Source: a virus
Length of the DNA stretch: 23,628 nt
IMG/VR virus record: IMGVR_UViG_3300012919_002183
Span: 1 to 23,628 of that record
Direction: 5' to 3' (one strand)
Shown: piece by piece, positions 1 through 10,624 of the stretch
Numbering within the stretch: the first letter of the stretch is position 1
Layout of the letters: each line of letters opens with the position of its first letter
Notes under the pieces: model-generated
Told to the model about the DNA's origin: nothing
Database searches by the model: none
The model's input: only the letters and a program-made list of their open reading frames with translations
Translations under genes and position numbers: made by a program

Positions 1-1785
1 AAGAAACTTATACACTACATTTTAATCGGAATAATGCTCAACTGGAACGTGGCCGTGTTCGCTGAAGAGGACCAAGGTTGCGAGTGGAAGACATTCGAAG
101 AAACCGACACATACATCATGGAGAACTGTGTGCATCCGGATGGTGGTTATCAGGCACGTGTTAGGCAGAAACCTGTTGAGGGACTTAATATTACAATAGT
201 AGAAGCACCCAAGAAAAAAGAAAATCCTATAAAAGAATTCAAAGACAAGGTAAAAGAAGCACCTCAGATAGCAGAAAAAGTAGAAAAAATTGAAAAAGTG
301 CAAGAAGAGATTATTGTTACAGAAAAAAAAGTAAAAGAATTAAAAGAAGAGAAAAGTGTAGCAGAAAAAGTTGAGGAACACGTTGAGAATAAAATACTTG
401 CTGAAACACCCGTTACGGATACAGAAAAACCCGCAGTCAAAGAAGAAATAAAAAAAGTAGAAATTAATAATAAATCAGATGAGAAACTTGTTGAACAAGC
501 CACAGAAAAAGAGTGGGCAGAAGTAGATGCCACTAAAAATGTTGATTGGATGCAACTTCATGAAATGTTACCTAGACTTATCGTTGAAAACGAAAAAGTA
601 AAAGCGGCAGAACTTGAGTACGAAGCGGCCGTTGAATCTCTTAAATCAGAATACACAGCATACTATCCACAGGTAACAATATCAGTGGGTAATAATTGGG
701 AAGATGACCGAACACCAAGCAAAGGAACATATCCAAATAATACAATAGCACACGACTCCAAACAAGGCATACAGAAAAGTATCACAATCACACAGATGAT
801 ATGGGACGCAGGTAGGACTAATGCGATGATAGACAAAGCAAAGGCAACTGCACAACAGGCCTACTACCGATTAGAACTGACAAAAGAAGATGTGGTGATG
901 GAAGCCATAAATGCTTGGTTGAATCTACAGAAAGCATACAACACACACGAAGCAAACAAGAAAGTTGAAGCCAATGCAAAGATCACTCTTGCAATGACAA
1001 TAGAGAAAGTTAAGAAAGGTGAAGGTTCCAAATTGGAACAACTGCAAATAGAACAACAATACAGAACATATCAAACACTGTCGATGACCAGCAGACTAGG
1101 ACTTGATAGTGCAATACAGAGATATCAAAATGTTTGGAGATTCTTCCCACACAATATCGCAGAAATGCCAACACCTATCGCTGACTTATTAGGATTAATT
1201 CCACATCAAGGCACAGAGGTTGTGAATAACACAAATCTTAAAATTGCGAGACAAGACGTTATAATTGCAGAAGAACAATTGAATTTTGACAGGGCAGAAT
1301 TCAAACCAAGAGTGGACGGCAAACTTTCATACACAGAAAAGGATGGAGAGTTAAGTGGTGGATACAACACACACGATGCACAAAAGGAAGAGTGGAGAGC
1401 AGACATCACAATGACTTGGAAGATATTCAACTTTAAGAACAAACACATGACTAACGCGGATCATCACAGATTGAACGCGGCACACAGCAGATATCATGAT
1501 CTTATGAGAACAACAGACGAGCAGTTCAAGAACGCATGGAACAATTATGTGTTGGTTGAAAAGAACTTGGAAACACTGAAACGTACGGTAGAAATCAACG
1601 ATGAGATGTACAAGTTGACGTTGGCTGACTTCCAAGCAGGTAACTCGCCCATAATGGCAGTGTTTGGCATGAAGACTGCACACTTGATGGCCGAAGTTGC
1701 TTATCAAAACGCACAGATTGATTGGCAGATAGCAAGATACCAATTACACAAGGTACTTGGCTTGGTAAATCCTATCATCAAGTAA
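1..1785 (+). CDS. TolC-like outer-membrane efflux protein, 5' end cut by window
   Basis: Outer-membrane channel of the TolC/OEP family, the exit duct of type I secretion systems. The frame is open from base 1. The first in-frame ATG is at 34, but the 11 codons before it (KKLIHYILIGI) complete a signal peptide ending NVAVFA/EED, so the true start most likely lies just upstream of the window. Counting from the ATG at 34, residues 11-35 hold two Cys (16, 32) that could form a disulphide. Residues about 57-168 are a Lys/Glu-rich, probably helical spacer that ordinary TolC proteins lack. From about 170 the TolC fold begins, with YYPQVTISVG, QMIWDAGR and a C-terminal repeat containing FQAGNSPIMAVFGMKTA and LHKVLGL. 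It heads an operon with an ABC membrane domain and a HlyD-like adaptor. A channel role is well supported; an intact export role is not. Confidence 0.85.
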   Translation, partial: KKLIHYILIGIMLNWNVAVFAEEDQGCEWKTFEETDTYIMENCVHPDGGYQARVRQKPVEGLNITIVEAPKKKENPIKEFKDKVKEAPQIAEKVEKIEKVQEEIIVTEKKVKELKEEKSVAEKVEEHVENKILAETPVTDTEKPAVKEEIKKVEINNKSDEKLVEQATEKEWAEVDATKNVDWMQLHEMLPRLIVENEKVKAAELEYEAAVESLKSEYTAYYPQVTISVGNNWEDDRTPSKGTYPNNTIAHDSKQGIQKSITITQMIWDAGRTNAMIDKAKATAQQAYYRLELTKEDVVMEAINAWLNLQKAYNTHEANKKVEANAKITLAMTIEKVKKGEGSKLEQLQIEQQYRTYQTLSMTSRLGLDSAIQRYQNVWRFFPHNIAEMPTPIADLLGLIPHQGTEVVNNTNLKIARQDVIIAEEQLNFDRAEFKPRVDGKLSYTEKDGELSGGYNTHDAQKEEWRADITMTWKIFNFKNKHMTNADHHRLNAAHSRYHDLMRTTDEQFKNAWNNYVLVEKNLETLKRTVEINDEMYKLTLADFQAGNSPIMAVFGMKTAHLMAEVAYQNAQIDWQIARYQLHKVLGLVNPIIK

Positions 1786-1809: not shown

Positions 1810-2565
1810 ATGAAAAGTCTTATCCGACATCTATCCAAGGAACCTGGCACAGCATCAATGCTGTTAACCAGCAGTTTCATAATTGGTATTTGTGCATTGG
1901 CACCAGCATTGTTTGTGATAATTGTGTTGAACAAGTATCTCACATCGGGAGTCACAGCAACATTGATAAGCCTGTCTATAGGCGCAGTATTGGCAATAGC
2001 ATTTGAGTTCACCTTCAGACAGAACAGGGGCAAAATGATGACCGCTTTCAATCAACGTGTGTATGATCCTCTGTTGAAAGCATTCGCAGAAAAATTTAAC
2101 AAAGCAGGACAACTCACAACACAGCAATATAAAAATTTGGATGGTGCAGGCACCATGGTTAAAAATATGAGGACATCGGGTATTACAAGTTGGATATTGG
2201 ATTGGCCTTTCGTGTTGCTGTTTTTGATTGTGTTGCTGTACATAAATTGGGCCGCATCAATAATCACTGCCATATTCATGTTGATCATGTACTTCTTGAT
2301 CACATGGAAAAGGAACGTTTCCATGTCACAGGACACACAGAGCAACATAGAAATATTTTTAAATGGCCTACAGACAATAGTAATCATGTCGGTTGGTGCC
2401 ATGATGATAATGGCAGGCACACTGGACATTGGGTTACTGATTGGTTCTAACATATTGGCCGCCAGGGCATTACAAGGAACCAGCAAATATGCCAAGGCAA
2501 CAGAATTTTTAAAACAACGTGATCGAGCAGTAGGGGAAATAATAAATTATGTCAAAGGCAAGTAA
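1810..2565 (+). CDS. Type I secretion ABC transporter membrane domain lacking the ATPase
   Basis: A 251-residue inner-membrane protein resembling the transmembrane half of type I secretion permease/ATPases. Visible signatures are ALFVIIVLNKYLTSG (family form: LFVMNVYDRVVPN), a hydrophobic segment at the family's IDLPFALLF position (here WILDWPFVLLFLIVLL), and GTLDIGLLIGSNILAARAL (family form: GxLTMGGLIACxILSGRAL). It ends about where the nucleotide-binding domain would begin, with no Walker A, signature or Walker B motif. The long helices and coupling loop between TM4 and TM5, normally about 75 residues, shrink to about 15 (after LITWKR, before FLNGLQTIV). It therefore lacks both the motor and one motor-contacting loop. 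It overlaps the HlyD-like gene by 17 bases. A separately encoded ATPase could exist outside the window. Confidence 0.75.
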   Translation: MKSLIRHLSKEPGTASMLLTSSFIIGICALAPALFVIIVLNKYLTSGVTATLISLSIGAVLAIAFEFTFRQNRGKMMTAFNQRVYDPLLKAFAEKFNKAGQLTTQQYKNLDGAGTMVKNMRTSGITSWILDWPFVLLFLIVLLYINWAASIITAIFMLIMYFLITWKRNVSMSQDTQSNIEIFLNGLQTIVIMSVGAMMIMAGTLDIGLLIGSNILAARALQGTSKYAKATEFLKQRDRAVGEIINYVKGK

Positions 2566-3250
2566 CAGATTCTTTTTTGCCATCACAACTTTGTTTGTGA
2601 TAATCTTCGCATGGATGTCATTTGCAAAAGTGGATATAACAACACAGGCAGTTGGAATCGTAGTACCTGAGAAAAACATAACACAACTAGGCACAATGGT
2701 CACAGGAGAAATTGTTGCTGTAAATTACAAACAAGGAGACGTTGTAAAGAAAGGTGATGTGATCATAACAATCAATCCTGGAGTGGGTTATGAGCCAAGA
2801 GATATTGTTGCAAACATTGATGGTAGGATACAGGAACTCACTTATAGGAATCCAGGTTCTGTCGTTAAACAGGGCGATGGACTTGCTATACTTGTACCAT
2901 TAGATCAAAAATTAATTATAAACGGAAGACTGTTGGTTAAGGACAGAGGATATGTCACAGTTGGCATGGACGCAAAAATTAGATTAGCAAACCAAGACCA
3001 ATTAAAATTTGATTCAATCAATGCAAAAGTGATATCCATATCTCCAGATGCCGTGCAGTCTGAGAGTGCCGCGTGGTATGACATAGAACTGGAAATAGAA
3101 AAAGAATTTTTCACAAGCGGAGACACTACATATAATCTTGTACCAGGGATCCACGTATATGTTTTTATTTTAACCGGGGAGAGAACAGTTTTAAGTTATA
3201 TAACAACACCTTTCCACAACGGCATAGGCCAGGCGCTACAGGAAAGATAA
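2549..3250 (+). CDS. HlyD-like membrane fusion protein without coiled-coil hairpin
   Basis: Periplasmic adaptor of the HlyD family, 233 residues where classical HlyD proteins have about 430-480. There is one N-terminal TM helix (residues about 8-26). The first half of the lipoyl domain follows (TGEIVAVNYKQGDVVKKGDVI), then only about nine residues (PGVGYEPRD, 77-85) where the long alpha-helical hairpin normally sits. The second half of the lipoyl domain (VANIDGRIQELTYRNPGSVV) and the beta-barrel with the typical ISPDAV motif (164-169) and LVPGIHV come next. The frame is intact, so the loss is a clean internal deletion rather than decay. An AGGGGA sequence 11 bases before the ATG may serve as ribosome binding site. 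It overlaps the permease gene and shares one base with the next small gene (TAATG). Confidence 0.82.
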   Translation: MSKASNRFFFAITTLFVIIFAWMSFAKVDITTQAVGIVVPEKNITQLGTMVTGEIVAVNYKQGDVVKKGDVIITINPGVGYEPRDIVANIDGRIQELTYRNPGSVVKQGDGLAILVPLDQKLIINGRLLVKDRGYVTVGMDAKIRLANQDQLKFDSINAKVISISPDAVQSESAAWYDIELEIEKEFFTSGDTTYNLVPGIHVYVFILTGERTVLSYITTPFHNGIGQALQER

Positions 3251-3378
3251 TGTTGACTTGGTTTCTATTAGGAATAATGATTGGACTACTAATCCGATGT
3301 TGTGCAAAACCGCACAAATCAGAAGAAGATAAATTTAAAGATCCATGGAATTGGACAAGTTTCGGAGGAGGCGGATGA
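3250..3378 (+). CDS. 42-residue single-TM peptide with Gly-rich tail
   Basis: A short frame linking the HlyD-like gene and the cyclase gene. Its ATG shares one base with the HlyD stop (TAATG) and its stop overlaps the cyclase start (ATGA). The product begins MLTWFLLGIMIGLLIR, one short membrane helix, then has a Cys-Cys pair, a charged stretch with KSEEDKFKDPWNW, and ends FGGGG. The exact end-to-end fit between two real genes argues that it is translated. Part of its 3' end supplies the Shine-Dalgarno sequence of the cyclase gene. Function unknown; it may be a small membrane subunit of the complex. Confidence 0.6.
   Translation: MLTWFLLGIMIGLLIRCCAKPHKSEEDKFKDPWNWTSFGGGG
3364..3371 (+). promoter_or_regulatory. 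Strong Shine-Dalgarno sequence deciding the cyclase start
   Basis: GGAGGAGG lies three bases before ATG 3375, with its first GGAGG six bases before it. This favours 3375 over the in-frame ATG at 3345, which has no ribosome binding site and would embed this sequence inside the coding region. Confidence 0.7.
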
Positions 3379-5300
3379 GATTCCTTACAAGCATATGGAT
3401 GGTTCTGATAGTGGCTGTCTTACTATTAGGTGTTCGTGTTGACAACAACGATTATGTCAAAACACTGAAATACAAAACTTGGGACTACTTTCAGATAATA
3501 CATCCACGAGACGTTATAAGTGATTCCGTCACTGTGGTGAATATAACGGAAAAAGATCTCAAAGCATATGGACAATGGCCGTGGCCTAGACACATAATGG
3601 CAATGCTTCATGCTAGGATTGGCGATGCCGGTGCTATACTAGTAAACTACAATATACTTTTTGCAGAACCTGACAGGATGAGTGGTGTGGAATATTTAAA
3701 AAGTATGCCCATGACCAACGAATTGCGTGAGCAGTTAGGCAAAACATTATTAGACACAGATGCAGTTTTTTCAACTATGCTACGAGAATCTAATAGAGCC
3801 GTGTTGATGATGAGCGTTAAAAATGAACGTGGTGTTGAATTGCCAAGTACAACGCAAATAATCGAAAAGGGAGATGCAAAACCTTGGCTGTATGAATACG
3901 AAGGTATAGTTTCTCCAACACAAAAATTATCAGCAGGAGCGGCCGGTATGGGAGTAAATGTTACTTCGCCTGAACCAGATGCAGTAGTTAGAAAAATGCC
4001 AATGCTGATTCGTATAAATGGAAAAATATATCCGAGTATGATATTAGAAAATGTTAGATTGCTCAATGGTTCAAAAAGAATTAAAGTAATTGCTAAAGCA
4101 CACGGAATTGACGAGGTGCTTGTAAGCAAGAAAGCAGGTGTACCTGTTAATCACAATGCAGAAATGTATATCCATTATGCCGAGCCAAGCAAGTATATAC
4201 AAATGTCTGCCAGTGAAATATTTTCGGACAATTTTAATGAGAATAAAATCAAAGGAAGGATTGTTGTAGTTGGCCTAGATGCCGCAGGATTGAGTGTGCT
4301 GAAATACACACCACATGGATTGACAACCGATACCATGATTACTGCCCAAGCATTAGATACTTTGCTTACTGGAAAACATTTATTAAGAACACCACAAGCG
4401 GACACGTATGAAATAATATTCATGGCTATGTTAGGTTTGCTTATGATTATTTTGATCCCAAGAACATCTGTGTTATTCTCAGTACCACTTTTAGTGTTCA
4501 CGTTGGGTGGAATAAGTTATGCATCATTCATGGCATATGCTAACAAAGGATGGTTGATCGATTCATCGTTCGCAGTGCTTTTCATTTTTTTAATTTGGTC
4601 GCATAGCACATATAACAATTTTGCAACACAAAGCAGATTAAGAAAACAGATCAAAAAACAATTTGAACATTACCTAGATCCTGGCATGGTTAAAAAATTA
4701 CAGAAAGATCCTTCATTATTAAAACTTGGAGGAGAGACAAGGAACATGACCTTTTTGTTTTGTGACATAAGAGGCTTCACTCCTATCAGTGAGAAGTACA
4801 AAGGAAATCCCGAAGGACTCACAAAACTTATCAACAGGTTCCTAACACGCATGACAGATGTCATAATAGCCAACGGTGGAACCATAGACAAATTCATGGG
4901 CGACTGTATCATGGCTTTCTGGAATGCTCCAATAGAAAATATAAATCACAGAGAGTTGGCAGTAAAAAGTGCATTAGAGATGACAGTTGCGTTGAAAGAA
5001 TTAAATATGAGACTGGTTGCGGAAGGTCTTCCACAAATCAACATCGGCATAGGAATAAACACAGGAGACGCACTTGTAGGAAATATGGGATCCGAACAAA
5101 GGTTTGATTATTCTGTAATTGGAGATGCAGTCAATCTTGCGTCAAGACTGGAAAGTTCAAGTAAAACTTTAGGAAAAACAATAGTGATAGGAGAGGACAC
5201 AAGGCACACGATAGAAACATCTTATCCGTTTGAATATATAGACAGCATCACGGTAAAAGGTAAAACTGAAGAAATAAAGGTGTACACTGTTAAGGATTAA
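3375..5300 (+). CDS. CHASE2-domain class III adenylate cyclase
   Basis: Membrane receptor cyclase of 641 residues, predicted to make cAMP from ATP. Order: an N-terminal TM helix (MRFLTSIWMVLIVAVLLLGV), an extracytoplasmic CHASE2 sensor (motifs GQWPWPRHI, LFAEPD, GAAGMGVNV), about three TM helices, then a cytoplasmic class III cyclase domain. Catalytic residues are present: metal-binding Asp464 (FCDIRGFT) and Asp510 (MGDCIMAF), adenine-selecting Lys506 (DKFMGD), and Asn587 and Arg591 (GDAVNLASR) for the transition state. Ser580 sits where Asp or Thr usually helps select adenine, a mild change. The start at 3375 is chosen for the upstream GGAGGAGG and the ATGA overlap; an in-frame ATG at 3345 would add ten residues. 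The cyclase class is secure. Its ligand, and why a phage carries it, are unknown. Confidence 0.92.
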   Translation: MRFLTSIWMVLIVAVLLLGVRVDNNDYVKTLKYKTWDYFQIIHPRDVISDSVTVVNITEKDLKAYGQWPWPRHIMAMLHARIGDAGAILVNYNILFAEPDRMSGVEYLKSMPMTNELREQLGKTLLDTDAVFSTMLRESNRAVLMMSVKNERGVELPSTTQIIEKGDAKPWLYEYEGIVSPTQKLSAGAAGMGVNVTSPEPDAVVRKMPMLIRINGKIYPSMILENVRLLNGSKRIKVIAKAHGIDEVLVSKKAGVPVNHNAEMYIHYAEPSKYIQMSASEIFSDNFNENKIKGRIVVVGLDAAGLSVLKYTPHGLTTDTMITAQALDTLLTGKHLLRTPQADTYEIIFMAMLGLLMIILIPRTSVLFSVPLLVFTLGGISYASFMAYANKGWLIDSSFAVLFIFLIWSHSTYNNFATQSRLRKQIKKQFEHYLDPGMVKKLQKDPSLLKLGGETRNMTFLFCDIRGFTPISEKYKGNPEGLTKLINRFLTRMTDVIIANGGTIDKFMGDCIMAFWNAPIENINHRELAVKSALEMTVALKELNMRLVAEGLPQINIGIGINTGDALVGNMGSEQRFDYSVIGDAVNLASRLESSSKTLGKTIVIGEDTRHTIETSYPFEYIDSITVKGKTEEIKVYTVKD

Positions 5301-5311
5301 GTACTAGTATT

Positions 5312-5593
5312 ATGAATGCGTATTGGAAATTGATAGCAGATCTAGGTCTACCGATAGTAGCGGCTATTGGACTAGGTGCATTTATTATGATAATAATCAA
5401 ATACATCCTGGGAGGCATAGTAAATTCTATCAAATTTATTGAAAATGTTATCACACAATTGGATAACAGAGTCAAAACAATGAACAACGACATACTTAAA
5501 ATTGATCAACAGGTTTCAGAACAGTTGAATATACCTCTTGATACTGACAGAATTGCCAGAGCCAATGGCAAGGAAGATGCTAGAAAGGATTAA
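5312..5593 (+). CDS. Small TM plus coiled-coil protein, first of a tandem pair
   Basis: 93 residues with one N-terminal membrane helix (DLGLPIVAAIGLGAFIMIII) and a coiled-coil-like region (NRVKTMNNDILKIDQQVSEQ) followed by a charged tail. It starts 11 bases after the cyclase stop and shares one base with the next gene. Architecture and sequence resemble the following gene (LPIVA/FPIVA; RVKTMNNDILKI/RVRMLDNDLIRL), so the two are probably an old tandem duplication. The layout recalls BhlA/UviB-type holin-like proteins, but nothing here proves lysis; a subunit of the neighbouring membrane complex is equally possible. Confidence 0.7.
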   Translation: MNAYWKLIADLGLPIVAAIGLGAFIMIIIKYILGGIVNSIKFIENVITQLDNRVKTMNNDILKIDQQVSEQLNIPLDTDRIARANGKEDARKD

Positions 5594-5850
5594 TGCAATT
5601 AACGAACACTGCATATACTATTTCAAATGTAATTCAAGACTATGGGTTTCCCATAGTTGCAGTTTTCTTTTTGGCATATTTTATCTATTATCTTTACAAC
5701 TATATCACAAAAGAGATAACTCCAAAACTTGGTTCAACGTCAGCAACACTAATCAAATTGATAGACAGAGTTAGAATGCTTGACAACGATCTTATCAGGT
5801 TGGAAACCAAACTCAAGACAACAAGACTTCGAAAACAAAAGAAGAAGTAG
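5593..5850 (+). CDS. Small TM plus coiled-coil protein, second of a tandem pair
   Basis: 85 residues: a membrane helix (DYGFPIVAVFFLAYFIYYL), a linker, a short amphipathic helix with DRVRMLDNDLIRLETKL, and a very basic C-terminus (RLRKQKKK). It is translationally coupled to its paralogue by a TAATG joint. From memory, similar YGFPIVA...RVRMLDNDLIRL proteins are common in marine T4-like phages, so this member may be the ancestral phage gene and the upstream one a divergent copy. A holin-like or membrane-anchoring role is possible but unproven. Confidence 0.75.
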   Translation: MQLTNTAYTISNVIQDYGFPIVAVFFLAYFIYYLYNYITKEITPKLGSTSATLIKLIDRVRMLDNDLIRLETKLKTTRLRKQKKK

Positions 5851-5897
5851 TAATATTACTCTTAAAAATACACAGTAAATATTCAATAGGAGTTGAT

Positions 5898-6161
5898 ATG
5901 AAATTTTTCATGGTAATAATAGTTTGTATGACGGCAGATTTTTGCGAAGCAATCTATGACAAAACCGAATATAATACAAGAGCAGAATGTTTGGAAAAGA
6001 CAGCAGTGGTCAAAGACTACATGATACAAATGTTTCCAACGTCTAGAGGCGAGATCCATTGCATGGATGAAGATACTTTCCAAGGTTACCAAGACTATTT
6101 GGAAAATAACACACCTACGGTAACTCCTGGTTCTACACCAAGTCCTACATTAAGCCTGTAG
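5898..6161 (+). CDS. Small secreted Cys-containing protein with Pro/Thr/Ser-rich tail
   Basis: 87 residues. The N-terminus (MKFFMVIIVCMTADFCEA) looks like a short signal peptide. The mature part has Cys31 and Cys55, which could pair in the periplasm, a CLEKT...MFPTSRGEIHCM core, and a PT/PS-rich C-terminal tail of about 15 residues. A clear AGGAG at 5888-5892 sits five bases before the ATG and fixes the start. It resembles, from memory, small secreted proteins of marine cyanophages. It ends directly before a sigma70-type promoter and closes the envelope cluster. Function unknown. Confidence 0.7.
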   Translation: MKFFMVIIVCMTADFCEAIYDKTEYNTRAECLEKTAVVKDYMIQMFPTSRGEIHCMDEDTFQGYQDYLENNTPTVTPGSTPSPTLSL

Positions 6162-6189
6162 TTGACAAATACCAAAATTATAGTATAAT
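6162..6189 (+). promoter_or_regulatory. Consensus sigma70-type promoter, predicted leaderless transcript
   Basis: TTGACA (6162-6167) and TATAAT (6184-6189), both perfect, are separated by 16 bases. The -35 box starts on the first base after the previous stop codon. The start codon at 6196 begins seven bases after the -10 box, where transcription itself should start, so the mRNA would have almost no leader. It probably drives the block of small genes that follows, using host sigma70 polymerase. Confidence 0.8.
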
Positions 6190-6195
6190 AAGATT

Positions 6196-6501
6196 ATGAA
6201 ATCTAAGGTATCAAGAAGTCTGACTAAGACTATTACTTGGCGTATACTTGCGACATCTGACACTTTCTTAATTTCCTGGTTCATTACAGGAAACTGGAGT
6301 TGGGCAGGTGCAATAGCAGGCATAGAAGTTGTTACTAAAATGTTCTTGTATTATGGACATGAAAGAGTTTGGGATAAAATTAAATGGGGCAGAGAGGCAA
6401 TTGAACTACCAACTGAAATATTTCCTAGTGAGGACTGGAAAGTGCAGAGGCTCAAAAACTATCTCAACAAAAAACACAAACGGTTAGCAAAATTGATATG
6501 A
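6196..6501 (+). CDS. DUF2061-family membrane protein
   Basis: 101 residues matching DUF2061: an N-terminal SLTKTITWRILATSDTFLIS segment, a short hydrophobic hairpin (GNWSWAGAIAGIEVVTKMFLYY) and the family's HERVWDKIKWG motif, followed by a basic tail. The domain is known from bacteria and is presumed to sit in the inner membrane; its function is not established. No Shine-Dalgarno sequence precedes the ATG, in keeping with the promoter ending only six bases upstream. Its stop overlaps the next start (ATGA). Confidence 0.85.
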   Translation: MKSKVSRSLTKTITWRILATSDTFLISWFITGNWSWAGAIAGIEVVTKMFLYYGHERVWDKIKWGREAIELPTEIFPSEDWKVQRLKNYLNKKHKRLAKLI

Positions 6502-6710
6502 AGAACGGCAAATTAGACCAATTTGAAATTGAAGCGAAGACGTCGGGAGGCGCAGTATTTGAAGCAGGTGTCAAGATGTCTAAAAGTAGTAAAGCAATTA
6601 GACAGATTGCACAGCCTTTAATGGATAAACATTGGAAAGGTCAAGTTACAAATTTACATAGAATTTATAGAGTGGCAGAATACTTACTCGAAAGAAAGAA
6701 AAGAAGATGA
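6498..6710 (+). CDS. Hypothetical protein, 70 residues
   Basis: Not recognised. It is a basic small protein (MKNGKLDQFEIEAKTSGGAV, ending LERKKRR), probably helical in its second half, with no membrane segment. ATGA overlaps join it to both neighbours, which supports it as a real member of the operon. Confidence 0.65.
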   Translation: MKNGKLDQFEIEAKTSGGAVFEAGVKMSKSSKAIRQIAQPLMDKHWKGQVTNLHRIYRVAEYLLERKKRR

Positions 6711-6877
6711 GCAACTATATTAAGAGCCTTGCAAATTTTTTGTTTGCTAAAATTAACGATCACCAAAACGATGACGAGGTAAGGAAAAATAAACCTATGC
6801 TTTGGCCGGCAGGTTTGTATTTTACAGAAAAAAATTTAGAACAATGGATTGAAGAACATGACAGAAGCGAAAAGTAA
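6707..6877 (+). CDS. Hypothetical protein, 56 residues
   Basis: A short frame lying between two other genes. It starts with an ATGA overlap at 6707 and ends inside the start of the next gene. The product begins MSNYIKSLANFLFAKINDHQ and has MLWPAGLYFTEKNLEQW in its second half. Not recognised. Without it there would be a 147-base hole in an otherwise gapless operon, and its coupling matches its neighbours. Confidence 0.6.
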   Translation: MSNYIKSLANFLFAKINDHQNDDEVRKNKPMLWPAGLYFTEKNLEQWIEEHDRSEK

Positions 6878-7046
6878 AGCATGGCAAATAGAGTTGAAAC
6901 TGCCAAAAGGAACTATTAAGACTCATGTATATTCAGACACAGGTGAAGATATAGTGCAAAGATTTAAAAATTATGAATGTAAAGTAATAGGAGAAATAGA
7001 TGATCCATGCAATGATAGACTTGGAAACATTGAGCACAAATCCTAA
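6858..7046 (+). CDS. Hypothetical protein, 62 residues
   Basis: A small soluble protein (MTEAKSKAWQIELKLPKGTI) with predicted beta strands. ATG 6858 is preferred; a TTG three codons upstream (6849) is also open. It overlaps the previous frame by 20 bases and the exonuclease gene by 47, and its 3' end carries the exonuclease's ribosome binding site. Not recognised; it might work with the exonuclease, but only proximity suggests so. Confidence 0.6.
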   Translation: MTEAKSKAWQIELKLPKGTIKTHVYSDTGEDIVQRFKNYECKVIGEIDDPCNDRLGNIEHKS

Positions 7047-7533
7047 CGCAGTTGTGTTGACTGTGGGTGGTGTGAAGTTTGATCCATATACAAATGCAGA
7101 ACCTAACCAAGGAATGTATTTTAGGATGGACGTGGACTCACAAACAGCAAAAGGCAGAGAGGTTATGCAGGAAACACTAGACTGGTGGAGTACACAACCT
7201 AAGGAAATAAGTGAAGAAGCCTTGGGTGACAACGACAGAATTAGTTTAGATGAAAGTATTAAAACAATAAACAAATGGTCAGTTGGTGTTGATGTATTTT
7301 GGTGCCAGGGTCCTTTATTTGACTACGCAATTTTACAGGACCTATACAAGCAGTTAGGACATCCTGTACCATGGCAATATTGGCAGATAAGAGACTCCAG
7401 AACATTGTTCAGTTTAGTGCCTAGAGACCCTAACGAAAAGAGAGCAGAGGCTCACAATGCTCTTGCTGACTGTTATTTTCAAGCAAAGAAGGTTCAAAAA
7501 GTATATAAGGATTTAAATATTAAAAATGTATAA
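7000..7533 (+). CDS. DEDDh 3'-5' exonuclease (Rv2179c/RNase T-like)
   Basis: 177 residues forming a single exonuclease domain. The acidic set is complete: Asp7 and Glu9 (MIDLETLS), Asp108 (GPLFDYAIL), and His152 with Asp157 (AHNALADC), which makes it DEDDh type. Compact phage and bacterial proteins of this kind degrade single-stranded RNA or DNA from the 3' end; T4 DexA is a functional analogue, and the Rv2179c-like family seems closest by pattern. AGGAG at 6989-6993, six bases before the ATG, sets the start. Substrate (RNA or DNA) cannot be told from sequence. Confidence 0.85.
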   Translation: MIHAMIDLETLSTNPNAVVLTVGGVKFDPYTNAEPNQGMYFRMDVDSQTAKGREVMQETLDWWSTQPKEISEEALGDNDRISLDESIKTINKWSVGVDVFWCQGPLFDYAILQDLYKQLGHPVPWQYWQIRDSRTLFSLVPRDPNEKRAEAHNALADCYFQAKKVQKVYKDLNIKNV

Positions 7534-7846
7534 ACCACTACCAGAAGGATTGACAATTAAAGAATCTAAAGTGCAAGGCTTGGGTCTGTTTGCAACAAAA
7601 GATTTTGATGCAGACGTGGTTCTCGGCATAGTGCATATTCTTAATAAAAATTTTCCACACGGAGCAATAAGAACGGCTCTCGGTGCGTTCTATAATCATT
7701 CAGGCAATCCCAACTGCAGAAATGTTGCAGGGTTTTGGCATCAATTACCTGTGAAATATCTAATGACTTCCAAACCTATAAAAGCAGGTGAAGAACTGAC
7801 AGCAGAATATAGCCTGTATGATGATTTCAACGAAGATGGAAACTAA
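7526..7846 (+). CDS. Mini SET-domain protein
   Basis: 106 residues, little more than a SET core. It shows GLGLFATKDF near the N-terminus, the cofactor-binding NHSGNPN motif (57-63, canonical NHSxxPN) and GEELTAEY (88-95) with the catalytic-type Tyr. SET proteins transfer methyl groups from S-adenosylmethionine to lysines. The usual Cys-rich post-SET segment is absent and the protein is shorter than most, so activity is likely but not certain. It overlaps the exonuclease gene by eight bases. The target in a phage infection is unknown; a ribosomal or virion protein is conceivable. Confidence 0.82.
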   Translation: MYKPLPEGLTIKESKVQGLGLFATKDFDADVVLGIVHILNKNFPHGAIRTALGAFYNHSGNPNCRNVAGFWHQLPVKYLMTSKPIKAGEELTAEYSLYDDFNEDGN

Positions 7847-8210
7847 TTGGTATAACATCACTGACCTGTACACAATAGATGATTACAAAGTTAAACACAA
7901 TCGTAATCCTAAAATTAAATTTATTAAACTGCCTTGTGTGTACAAAATAAGTATTAACGACAAAGTTGTTCACGTTGGTAGATCAGATACTTGCAAAAAA
8001 CATGGTGGAGCAGAGAAGGTACGCAAAGCGATCGTAAACCTTTTGAATGTGTTGGATCATAATCCTTCGGTAACAAAAACAAAATATTGGGAGGAAATTA
8101 GGTTGCAACATAGACCTAATTCCAGTAATATTAAGATAGGAATTATAAAAACCAATGCCATCAAAAAAAACTACATTCAAGAAGCCAAGAGAAATAATAT
8201 CCAAATATGA
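7836..8210 (+). CDS. Hypothetical protein, weak GIY-YIG resemblance
   Basis: 124 residues from the ATG at 7836, which overlaps the SET gene's end by 11 bases; an in-frame ATG at 7818 is less likely. The segment CVYKISINDKVVHVGRSDT resembles the opening beta-hairpin of GIY-YIG nucleases, but the Arg and Glu of that active site cannot be placed convincingly. The rest is basic and not recognised. Treat as unknown, possibly nuclease-related. Confidence 0.6.
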   Translation: METNWYNITDLYTIDDYKVKHNRNPKIKFIKLPCVYKISINDKVVHVGRSDTCKKHGGAEKVRKAIVNLLNVLDHNPSVTKTKYWEEIRLQHRPNSSNIKIGIIKTNAIKKNYIQEAKRNNIQI

Positions 8211-8562
8211 GGAAAGCACCTGGCTTGGTAACGACAAACCTTTCTACGAAGACGAAACAGTAGCAGTATTCAACGACAAATATCCGGTAACAAAAGGTCA
8301 TCTTTTATTCATTCCCAAAAAAGATGATCTCAAAACTGTGGTCAAAGCATATTCACTTGCTTACCATTGTGGTGAGGAGTGGATGAAGGCTGGGCAGATA
8401 GATGGATTCAACGTTGGACAAAACAGAGGTGATGCCGCTGGACAAACTATTATGTGGCCACACGTACATTTCATTCCGAGAAGAAACGGCGATCACGATC
8501 CTAGAGGAAACAATGGTGTGAGACTAGCACATCCAAACGGTGATCACAAAAGGTACTATTAA
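8155..8562 (+). CDS. HIT-family protein with first triad His replaced by Trp
   Basis: 135 residues of the histidine-triad (HIT) family, nucleotide hydrolases or transferases acting on substrates such as diadenosine polyphosphates or AMP-linked compounds. Evidence: GHLLFIPK early in the fold, FNVGQNRGDAAGQT, then QTIMWPHVHFIPRR and DPRGNNGVR. In the HxHxH triad the first His is Trp101. The middle His103, the nucleophile in known members, and His105 remain, so activity is plausible but altered. It overlaps the previous gene by 56 bases and joins the next by TAATG. Confidence 0.82.
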   Translation: MPSKKTTFKKPREIISKYEESTWLGNDKPFYEDETVAVFNDKYPVTKGHLLFIPKKDDLKTVVKAYSLAYHCGEEWMKAGQIDGFNVGQNRGDAAGQTIMWPHVHFIPRRNGDHDPRGNNGVRLAHPNGDHKRYY

Positions 8563-8825
8563 TGCCAAGAAAGAAAAAAAGACAACCACGTGGTAGACTG
8601 TATATCAGTCCAGATGGTGGCGAAACAATTTACGAACAATTATCAAATGGTAAAAGAGGCAAGTTAATAGAGCAATCCCAACTTGCAAAAGACACGGAAA
8701 TAGCACAAGACGAAATAGAGATGCATGGAGTTTATGCGATACAGATGCGAAGACAATATCCGGCTTTGAAAAACGCATGGGAAAAATATAAGACTGTATG
8801 GCACCTGATTCATGGTGAAAATTGA
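8562..8825 (+). CDS. Conserved hypothetical protein, basic N-terminus
   Basis: 87 residues starting MPRKKKRQPRGRLYISPDGG, then a helical second half with RRQYPALKNAWEKYKTVWHL. No enzyme motif is visible. From memory, short proteins with this RGRLYxSPDGG opening and YKTVWH ending occur in marine T4-like phages. The basic start suggests nucleic-acid contact. It shares one base with the HIT gene stop and ends this operon, before the longest gap in the window (95 bases), in which I see only weak promoter-like sequence. Confidence 0.7.
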   Translation: MPRKKKRQPRGRLYISPDGGETIYEQLSNGKRGKLIEQSQLAKDTEIAQDEIEMHGVYAIQMRRQYPALKNAWEKYKTVWHLIHGEN

Positions 8826-8920
8826 TGGTAATTTTTCGTGATGTACATACACTCCAATATTACTTTTACCAGTGCTGTGCGTTGCTTATATGCAGTTTAA
8901 AGGGGTGATTAAATAGTGTT

Positions 8921-9550
8921 ATGACCAAGTATGTTAGTATAATAGGCAATGGCGAAAGCAGAACAGGATTCGACATAACACCACTCAAAAAGTTCTCAAC
9001 TGTGGTAGGATGTAATGCTCTGTTTAGAGATTATCAACTAGATTATTTGGTATGTTGCGATAGGCATATGTGCCAAGAAGCGGTTAACACAGTTGGAAAA
9101 AAAACTACAATCTATACAAGAGAAAATTGGGTTGGACAATTTGCACATTGGCCTAATGTGAAAAAAGTGCCTGACTTACCATATGCTGGAGATCAAAGAC
9201 AAGACGAACCATTCCATTGGGGCACAGGACCATATGCCGGTGTTGTTGCTTTAAATTATAAACCAAAAGCCATATTCATGATTGGTTTTGATTTATGGTC
9301 AAAGAATGAAAAGCCAAACAATGTTTACAAAGACACAGACGGATACACATACATCAAAAGACCTGTAGATCCTTCATACTGGATATATCAGTTCCATAAG
9401 TTAATGGGAATTTCAGATCCAGATACAAGATGGATAGTTGTAAATGAACCTGATTGGAAGATGCCGGATGAATGGAAAAAACATACAAACGTTTTCCAAG
9501 AAACATACGAAGGCATGGCAAAGTTTATTGGAAAAAAAATAAACAGTTGA
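8921..9550 (+). CDS. IGNGESR-motif protein (possible sialyltransferase/DUF115-like)
   Basis: 209 residues. The N-terminus has a Rossmann-like beta-loop (SIIGNGESRTGFDITPL) followed by VVGCNALFRDY and DYLVCCDRHM, then HWGTGPYAGVVAL and IFMIGFDLWS. The GNGxS opening followed by a CNxxYR/CNxLFR element recalls CST-type sialyltransferases and DUF115/MptE-like proteins, which bind nucleotide-activated substrates. The match is by pattern only. A paralogue lies at 14372-15223. Likely role, inferred: glycan or nucleotide-linked transfer. ATTAAATA at 8908-8915 is a faint late-type box. Confidence 0.6.
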   Translation: MTKYVSIIGNGESRTGFDITPLKKFSTVVGCNALFRDYQLDYLVCCDRHMCQEAVNTVGKKTTIYTRENWVGQFAHWPNVKKVPDLPYAGDQRQDEPFHWGTGPYAGVVALNYKPKAIFMIGFDLWSKNEKPNNVYKDTDGYTYIKRPVDPSYWIYQFHKLMGISDPDTRWIVVNEPDWKMPDEWKKHTNVFQETYEGMAKFIGKKINS

Positions 9551-9574
9551 TAACCAGTTTGTTGGTGTATTCAC

Positions 9575-9602
9575 TTGACAAAATCTAAATAGCGTATATT
9601 AT
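9575..9602 (+). promoter_or_regulatory. Sigma70-type promoter, predicted leaderless transcript
   Basis: TTGACA (9575-9580) and TATTAT (9597-9602, one mismatch to TATAAT) are 16 bases apart in a 58-base intergenic gap. The ATG at 9609 begins seven bases after the -10 box, the same layout as the promoter at 6162-6189, so this mRNA too would start at or next to the start codon. Confidence 0.7.
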
Positions 9603-9608
9603 TATAGT

Positions 9609-9914
9609 ATGAGTTCACAATTTAAAGAGAAAGATTTAATCGCGATCAAGTTTGCATCTGGTGAAGAAATATTAGCAAAGTTCACAAGCGAAAACGAAAC
9701 ACACATTGGAGTAGATAGTGCTTTAACTTTGATGCAAGGCCCACAAGGACTTGCAATGGGCACATTTTTCAGCACAGCAGACCCTAATAAAACAATGCAT
9801 TTGTTGAAAAGTTCAATTATTTCCGTTGCAGAGATGAATCCCAAACTACATGATCAATACAACAACGTTTTTAACAAAATTAAAACAACACCAAAACCTA
9901 GCATAATAACATGA
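9609..9914 (+). CDS. Conserved hypothetical, predicted small beta-barrel (Sm-like)
   Basis: 101 residues. The opening LIAIKFASGEEILAKFTSE followed by a strand-rich core (THIGVDSALTLM) has the strand-turn pattern of Sm/Lsm or SH3-like barrels, and the C-terminal part (LLKSSIISVAEMN) closes it. From memory, equivalents exist in cyanophages. If Sm-like, RNA binding is possible but no binding residues can be assigned. The ATG follows the -10 box too closely for a leader; the stop overlaps the next start (ATGA). Confidence 0.65.
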   Translation: MSSQFKEKDLIAIKFASGEEILAKFTSENETHIGVDSALTLMQGPQGLAMGTFFSTADPNKTMHLLKSSIISVAEMNPKLHDQYNNVFNKIKTTPKPSIIT

Positions 9915-10171
9915 CCAGTAAAGTGTTAAAAGACCAAGAAATATCTATAGAAACTTTGATCGATACAACAGAGGCCATGCTGAACGTCCTCGAAAAAAAG
10001 GGTATCGATCCTGAGATGCTATCAAGAACAAAGGAATTCACTGTGTTAATACATTTCATGAAGGCAATAATAGACGGTGAACTTGGTATTCCTAACGAAC
10101 TTACTGGTAGAATCAAGGATGGCGTAGAGCCATTTAATGTTGACAACTCGTACAAACATAAGTTACACTAA
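9911..10171 (+). CDS. Hypothetical protein, 86 residues, helical
   Basis: Not recognised. An acidic, mainly helical protein (IETLIDTTEAMLNVLEKKGI) with no Cys and no membrane segment. It is coupled to the upstream gene by ATGA and sits three bases from the pterin-synthase-like gene. Operon membership is the only context. Confidence 0.65.
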   Translation: MTSKVLKDQEISIETLIDTTEAMLNVLEKKGIDPEMLSRTKEFTVLIHFMKAIIDGELGIPNELTGRIKDGVEPFNVDNSYKHKLH

Positions 10172-10174
10172 AGC

Positions 10175-10624
10175 ATGACATACTATTCAACTAAAACATA
10201 CGGGCATAATATAGGATTGGCCTGTGTGTTCCGACAACCAAACGCAGATCATTCGCATTGTCATCTGTTGCATGGATATAGTCTACAATTCAAATTTACT
10301 TTTGGTTGTGACGAGTTAGACAACAAAAACTGGGCAGTCGACTTTGGTGGATTAAAACCTTTGAAGAAGTGGTTAGAAGATCATTTTGATCATAAAACAG
10401 CATTGGATATAAATGATCCGCATCTTGAAAAGTTTAGAGAACTTGAAAAACTAGATCTTGTAGATATAGTAACTTTTGATGGAGTAGGTGCAGAAAAATT
10501 TGCCGAACACGCCTTCAACTTTGCAGACAAACTAATAAGAGAAAAGACAAACAATAGATGTTATGTGGTTGAGGTAGAATGTGCAGAACACGGAGCAAAC
10601 AGTGCCATCTACTCAAAAAAATAA
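10175..10624 (+). CDS. 6-pyruvoyl-tetrahydropterin synthase / QueD-like enzyme
   Basis: 149 residues of the PTPS/QueD fold, which converts 7,8-dihydroneopterin triphosphate into a pterin such as 6-carboxy-tetrahydropterin, an early step to queuosine and 7-deazaguanines. Seen: catalytic-type Cys29 in HSHCHLLHGYS, DFGGLK (56-61), the FDHKTALDINDP segment with Asp72-His73, and AEHGANSAIY near the end. The usual HGH zinc motif is HGY (His33, Tyr35), so one zinc ligand may come from elsewhere. Some bacterial relatives, from memory, also have HGY. No QueC, QueE or GTP cyclohydrolase is in the window, so it may feed a host pathway or a phage DNA- or tRNA-modification route encoded elsewhere. Confidence 0.85.
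   Translation: MTYYSTKTYGHNIGLACVFRQPNADHSHCHLLHGYSLQFKFTFGCDELDNKNWAVDFGGLKPLKKWLEDHFDHKTALDINDPHLEKFRELEKLDLVDIVTFDGVGAEKFAEHAFNFADKLIREKTNNRCYVVEVECAEHGANSAIYSKK

Follow-up and report, generated by a model that had tools for sequence, protein, structure and literature searches.

The systems closest to the locus described here are the RTX-adhesin type I secretion systems (T1SS) of Alphaproteobacteria and the curli cassettes of pelagiphages. In three alphaproteobacterial genomes (G067, G173 and G219) a TolC, a FecR-domain giant protein and a full-length ABC exporter are encoded together, with a gene for HlyD alongside. The HlyD of G219 is complete and includes its hairpin, and the TolC proteins of all three genomes have no spacer ahead of the channel fold. 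In pelagiphages, a FecR protein and an adenylate cyclase accompany curli genes (PMC9599517), and phage-encoded curli pores are an open puzzle in the literature. TolC is not mentioned in the texts of three pelagiphage papers (PMC9599517, PMC7029224 and PMC9004378).

The window analysed here is a stretch of 23,628 nucleotides (IMG/VR virus record IMGVR_UViG_3300012919_002183) from an uncultivated tailed marine phage. Its first genes and the site of one internal loss are as follows:

1-1785, plus strand: TolC-like ORF, reading frame open to base 1
1810-2565, plus strand: T1SS-type ABC exporter membrane domain of 251 aa, without ATPase domain and without the second intracellular loop
2549-3250, plus strand: HlyD-type adaptor with TM helix, lipoyl halves and beta-barrel, no alpha-hairpin
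2777-2806, plus strand: short join of about 10 residues (PGVGYEPRD) between the lipoyl halves, where the hairpin is lost
3345-5300, plus strand: CHASE2-sensor adenylate/guanylate cyclase (PF05226, 9.7e-39; PF00211, 1.6e-22)
5312-5593, plus strand: small membrane protein, phrog_18771, whose relatives flank the HTVC008M curli cassette
5593-5850, plus strand: phrog_18771 paralogue of the preceding protein, with weak holin likeness

A cassette of a FecR-adhesin, tolC, the ABC membrane domain, a hairpin-less HlyD and the CHASE2 cyclase recurs in at least 20 viral loci, in the same order in every locus with enough sequence. The FecR protein is encoded upstream, off the window, and was seen in L003, L004, L005, L006, L011, L013, L022, L023, L089, L092 and L110. 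It is 1000-1700 aa long and combines a Glu-rich coil with cadherin-type repeats and, in most cases, a FecR domain; its matches to SMC/Rad50 reflect coiled-coil composition only and were dismissed. RTX repeats and a serralysin-type C-terminus form its end in L092 and L110 and were not detected in the cargo of L003, L004 or L011.

Like the alphaproteobacterial RTX-adhesin T1SS (L043, L045 and L046; TIGR01844/TIGR03375/TIGR01843), the phage set combines homologous, neighbouring genes for TolC, the ABC membrane domain, HlyD and a FecR-domain giant protein. Unlike them, it has no ABC ATPase, second intracellular loop (ICL2) or HlyD hairpin, its TolC carries a Cys domain and a spacer, its gene order is different, and a CHASE2 cyclase is attached. 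Judged against the operons of G067, G173 and G219, the phage cassette appears to be an altered version of an alphaproteobacterial FecR-adhesin T1SS operon. Such a derivation would have removed the ATPase, ICL2 and the hairpin; the presumed cargo, the channel and the ring in the inner membrane would have been kept.

With the pelagiphage curli cassette (HTVC008M, Melnitz) the locus shares a FecR protein, a CHASE2 cyclase (34% identical to HTVC008M gp019) and the phrog_18771 pair, all beside an outer-membrane pore. There, however, the pore is CsgG/CsgF instead of TolC, and the FecR protein has a signal peptide. In L084 and L085 the T1SS-like and CsgF/CsgG curli cassettes adjoin and a second FecR protein is present; L085 additionally has a second CHASE2 protein. 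The phrog_18771 proteins, each with a single TM segment, flank both kinds of cassette alike, and a link to lysis is possible. The T4-type capsid family of HTVC008M (Gp23) is absent from the large contigs, so membership in that T4-like lineage was rejected, and the module seems common to several phage lineages. No match to the terminase family PF03237 was found in the large contigs. That FecR and the CHASE2 cyclase stand beside a second, unrelated type of pore suggests that the phage needs a pore and a surface protein, not curli itself.

The ABC protein matches TIGR03375 (type_I_sec_LssB; 1.1e-18) over 1810-2565 and is 28% identical to a bacterial full exporter, of which residues 170-225 (the loop after TM4) and 313-564 (the ATPase) are absent from the phage protein. 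In ABC exporters the loop after TM4 contacts the ATPase. AlphaFold predicts six TM segments for the membrane domain (pLDDT 83), and its best Foldseek matches are HlyB (8dck) and PrtD (5l22). A split ATPase encoded elsewhere in the phage was considered and rejected: in a set of 17 viral contigs, two of which measure 148 and 172 kb, the sole ABC ATPase over the cutoff was SufC in a 137-kb contig. In that contig (L050), positions 5809-10436 encode SufB, SufC and, after them, a protein resembling TonB-dependent B12 receptors.

The adaptor matches TIGR01843 (3.4e-45) in two pieces; the score is below the curated cutoff, which the loss of the hairpin would lead one to expect. Its C-terminal LSY..P...ALxER motif, lipoyl halves and barrel are present and place it in the T1SS HlyD family. 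The original prediction, made from the letters of the window, held that this partner of TolC had lost its hairpin, and both alignments bear this out: the adaptor covers residues 64-128 and 329-478 of E. coli HlyD (8dck) and nothing between, and in a MAFFT alignment it has no counterpart to residues 93-277 of the HlyD of a bacterial relative. The lipoyl halves are separated by about 10 residues in the window, by 194 in the bacterial relative and by 64 in the viral locus L103 (IMGVR_UViG_3300020465_001752, 1753-2724), whose short hairpin is intermediate between the bacterial and window forms. The TolC of L103 is 81% identical to that of the window over its OEP part, and its N-terminus lies off the contig. 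A search for viral loci with a hairpin-bearing HlyD and a readable TolC N-terminus found none besides L103.

Estimates of dN/dS, all of them rough because many pairs approach saturation at synonymous sites, are 0.161 for the ABC part and 0.127 for HlyD. Both are thus under purifying selection, and the ABC and HlyD remnant is maintained. Of the features of a functional T1SS, the set lacks the nucleotide-binding domain and a hairpin reaching TolC (a short one occurs in L103 only). Which parts of a T1SS a lineage can lose is visible here, namely the ATPase, one coupling loop and the adaptor hairpin, with the remainder under selection, so that nature itself tests here what keeps the three membrane parts assembled. 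The cassette may export the FecR protein with host power, interfere with a host exporter or act as an unpowered pore. With a little less than even confidence, we suggest that this adhesin-T1SS derivative, with its tethered TolC tip and neither ATPase nor hairpin, is a marine-phage alternative to the curli pore, an unpowered or host-powered envelope machine acting on the infected cell. The TolC, HlyD and ABC membrane-domain families, hairpin-less adaptors and phage curli pores are already known. What is novel is the ATPase-less, hairpin-less T1SS-like phage cassette; none with curli-type FecR and cyclase companions was found in the open-access literature searched.

The protein encoded by ORF 1-1785 is ordered, from N- to C-terminus, as signal peptide, Cys mini-domain, Lys/Glu-rich spacer and TolC fold:

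1-66, plus strand: signal peptide, residues 1-22, read by eye
67-180, plus strand: Cys mini-domain, residues 23-60, three short beta strands predicted
79-81, plus strand: C27
127-129, plus strand: C43
181-534, plus strand: Lys/Glu-rich spacer, residues 61-178, 118 aa
229-363, plus strand: amphipathic helical segment of the spacer, residues 77-121, about 45 aa
535-1785, plus strand: TolC/OEP outer-membrane channel domain (PF02321, TIGR01844, Foldseek)

The start codon lies one codon 5' of the window. Relatives begin MKK...; the TolC proteins of L003, L004, L011 and L013 start MKKLVHYILI... or MNKLVHYILI..., and their hydrophobic stretch is alike and ends in ...VFA before E. Because the frame is open at base 1 and relatives begin in this way, base 34 falls inside the signal peptide. 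Of the span 34-537 first claimed for the spacer, the spacer itself (181-534) holds, and the start does not, since it runs over signal peptide (1-66) and Cys domain (about 67-180).

The spacer does stand ahead of a genuine TolC fold, on which three lines of evidence agree: PF02321 (4.5e-48 on ORF 1-1785), TIGR01844 (type_I_sec_TolC; 8.5e-35 over residues 196-587, below its curated cutoff) and Foldseek (TolC 1ek9 and others, E 1e-15 to 1e-17). AlphaFold gives the OEP helices a pLDDT of 70-92. By profile and structure, the protein belongs to the TolC/OEP outer-membrane factors of T1SS type. In the bacterial relatives L043, L045 and L046 the OEP part directly follows the signal peptide, and the phage protein has about 155 extra residues at this point. 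Fold membership stands, as the extension is an addition and not a loss. A Listeria protein matching the TolC profile in the PDB (E 1.6e-4) was dismissed as a low-complexity match at the spacer-OEP junction. Elsewhere, a cellular TolC adjoining valyl-tRNA synthetase in a 1-Mb genome (L044, 153-1904) is extended at its N-terminus by about 150 unrelated residues, which are rich in Lys and Asn and lack the Cys pair, so N-terminal TolC extensions may be easily gained.

The original prediction also described two cysteines just before the spacer and a small tip pinned by them. Both cysteines, C27 and C43, are there and, together with an EET motif, are invariant in nine diverse viral relatives, L092 and L110 included. 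The mini-domain is kept even in L110, the most distant viral relative, and AlphaFold places strands at residues 30-34, 38-44 and 50-56, with low-to-middling pLDDT (about 54). A small Cys-pinned tip is therefore supported as a probable one, the C27-C43 disulphide being proposed from the conservation of the pair. The domain would be secreted, and no lipobox was seen by eye ahead of it. Searched against the PDB it gave no match, and against 240 genomes of the MAG's class it matched only phage contigs within one MAG, labelled Rickettsiales MED657; these hits are not host genes. Two contigs binned in this alphaproteobacterial MAG (L021 and L022) belong to this phage, which hints weakly at the host.

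The Lys/Glu-rich character of the spacer is confirmed: K and E make up 43% of it versus 16% of the TolC fold, and the richest 118-aa stretch of every other gene in the window reaches at most 25%. Among close relatives the spacer is 106-137 aa long, with frequent indels that are not heptad multiples. Its dN/dS (rough, as above) is 0.136, with 0.129 for the Cys domain and 0.055 for the OEP part, and some spacer positions are invariant among relatives. The spacer is hence under purifying selection and not junk, and with its conserved positions and a dN/dS of about 0.14 it differs from a fully disordered, unconserved stretch. Most of it could still be tolerated low-complexity filler, grown by slippage in AAA/GAA-rich DNA, with only the Cys domain mattering; the many indels that alter its length and sequence, and the dominance of K and E in an AT-rich genome, would fit this. 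We regard it as unlikely, given the purifying dN/dS of the spacer, the invariant positions inside the spacer, the amphipathic first segment of most relatives and the absence of a comparable stretch elsewhere in the window. Selection at this level combined with many indels is as expected of a constrained, length-tolerant linker.

How far such a linker could reach depends on its structure. If all 118 residues were helical they would span about 177 A, in keeping with the far reach into the periplasm first proposed. Helical amphipathic periodicity is, however, significant in residues 77-121 only (p=0.002 versus shuffles; p=0.58 for the other spacer residues); of the 12 relatives carrying that segment, 9 show it at p<=0.05. 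AlphaFold gives the spacer a pLDDT of about 28-47, with unconfident helices at 76-86, 91-129 and 145-175; the alignment supplied was shallow (15 sequences), so this low confidence is no proof of flexibility. The spacer does not behave as a rigid coiled-coil strut, with its periodicity confined to residues 77-121 and between 62 and 165 aa from the second Cys to the fold. A bridging strut should keep its length, and that role is disfavoured since the spacer varies by so many non-heptad indels.

These observations bear on the central proposal of the original prediction, that the spacer forms a helix or hairpin reaching down from TolC and substituting for the missing HlyD hairpin. No spacer occurs in the bacterial relatives whose hairpin is full, the complete viral loci are hairpin-less and extended, the first 45 residues are amphipathic, and the decisive pairing, that of L103, is unreadable. 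The second Cys is nonetheless separated from the TolC fold by 129-165 aa in close relatives, by 113 in L089, by 96 in L092 and by 62 in L110, where the stretch, at 24% K+E, is no longer Lys/Glu-rich. Over the same loci HlyD keeps to a steady 232-241 aa; in L092 and L110 it is hairpin-less at 232 aa. Substitution is unsupported because the spacer shrinks while the adaptor stays as it is.

A precedent points the same way. In Borrelia BesA (4KKS; PMC3807786) the lipoyl halves are joined by a short loop of nine residues, versus about 10 in the phage HlyD; BesA lacks a hairpin, and its pump works without a compensating domain in its other parts (PMC3807786), which speaks against the need for a substitute. 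The systems do differ, as BesA is a lipoprotein in an RND pump with an energised transporter, and its channel BesC has no extra domain. Moreover, the TolC N-terminus lies at the equator, whereas hairpins dock at the tip of the channel, and there is no ATPase to serve. Without ABC ATPase and one coupling loop the cassette is not obviously a conventional conduit that needs bridging. We consider hairpin substitution quite improbable; the original prediction is thus partly supported, for its tip and not for the substitution. The Cys domain, kept throughout, is a better candidate for the working part than the spacer, which is of moderate interest as a conserved, length-variable leash rather than a new hairpin.

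The reading we prefer, though we put it only at an even balance, is that a flexible periplasmic tether presents the disulphide mini-domain, acting as an envelope-binding leash and not as a rigid strut in place of the hairpin. It builds on the observed architecture, conservation and selection, on the absence of the extension from the bacterial relatives examined and on its decoupling from hairpin loss, and it is supported by the persistence of the Cys pair and EET motif where the distance to the fold shrinks to 62 aa. The N-terminal extension would be specific to the phage lineage, added to a T1SS-type outer-membrane channel, and the charged tether, opening with one short amphipathic helix, would link the mini-domain to the TolC barrel. 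A similar arrangement is seen in TolA, in which domains II and III combine a helical, Lys/Glu-rich spacer in the periplasm with a small end domain that contains a disulphide. TolA has an inner-membrane anchor and an Ala-rich long-helix spacer, and we claim no homology.

By analogy with solved TolC structures, the tether would leave the barrel on its outside near the periplasmic equator, since in E. coli TolC the N-terminal helix extends from the equatorial domain as far as the membrane (PMC13082787). In lipid-anchored outer-membrane factors, and in TolC-YbjP (PMC13082787), something is likewise joined to the channel at its N-terminus or equator, in their case a lipid or lipoprotein on the outer membrane and not a Cys mini-domain on a charged tether. 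Three tips, held at variable periplasmic distance, might bind an envelope partner such as the inner-membrane HlyD/ABC remnant, the CHASE2 sensor or the cell wall. The leash may in this way keep channel, inner-membrane ring and perhaps sensor together without hairpin contacts.

Two other roles for the extension can be weighed. Anchoring of the channel to peptidoglycan would agree with the proposed position of equatorial TolC at the peptidoglycan layer (PMC13082787), but neither Pfam nor NCBIfam finds a known peptidoglycan-binding domain, and the net charge of the spacer (-2 to -12) disfavours an electrostatic version; the chance of this appears very slim. Alternatively, the extension might bind the presumed cargo, the adhesin with FecR domain, Glu-rich coil and cadherin repeats, and retain it on the surface in the manner of LapA. 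Wherever a locus covers that region, the gene for the cargo sits immediately upstream of tolC, and the RTX and serralysin-type ends of the distant members are typical of T1SS substrates. In LapA systems, however, retention relies on the adhesin's own N-terminus. Cargo coil and spacer are both net negative, offering no complementarity, and the phage has no ATPase for cargo export, which leaves cargo retention a highly doubtful explanation.

Further along the window, the ORFs from 15532, 16142, 17151 and 21593, one of them matching baseplate wedge/tail-fibre connectors, begin with similar 'INTGTxANDGTGDxLRTAxxxINxNFTELY'-like segments and continue into different repeat-rich proteins.
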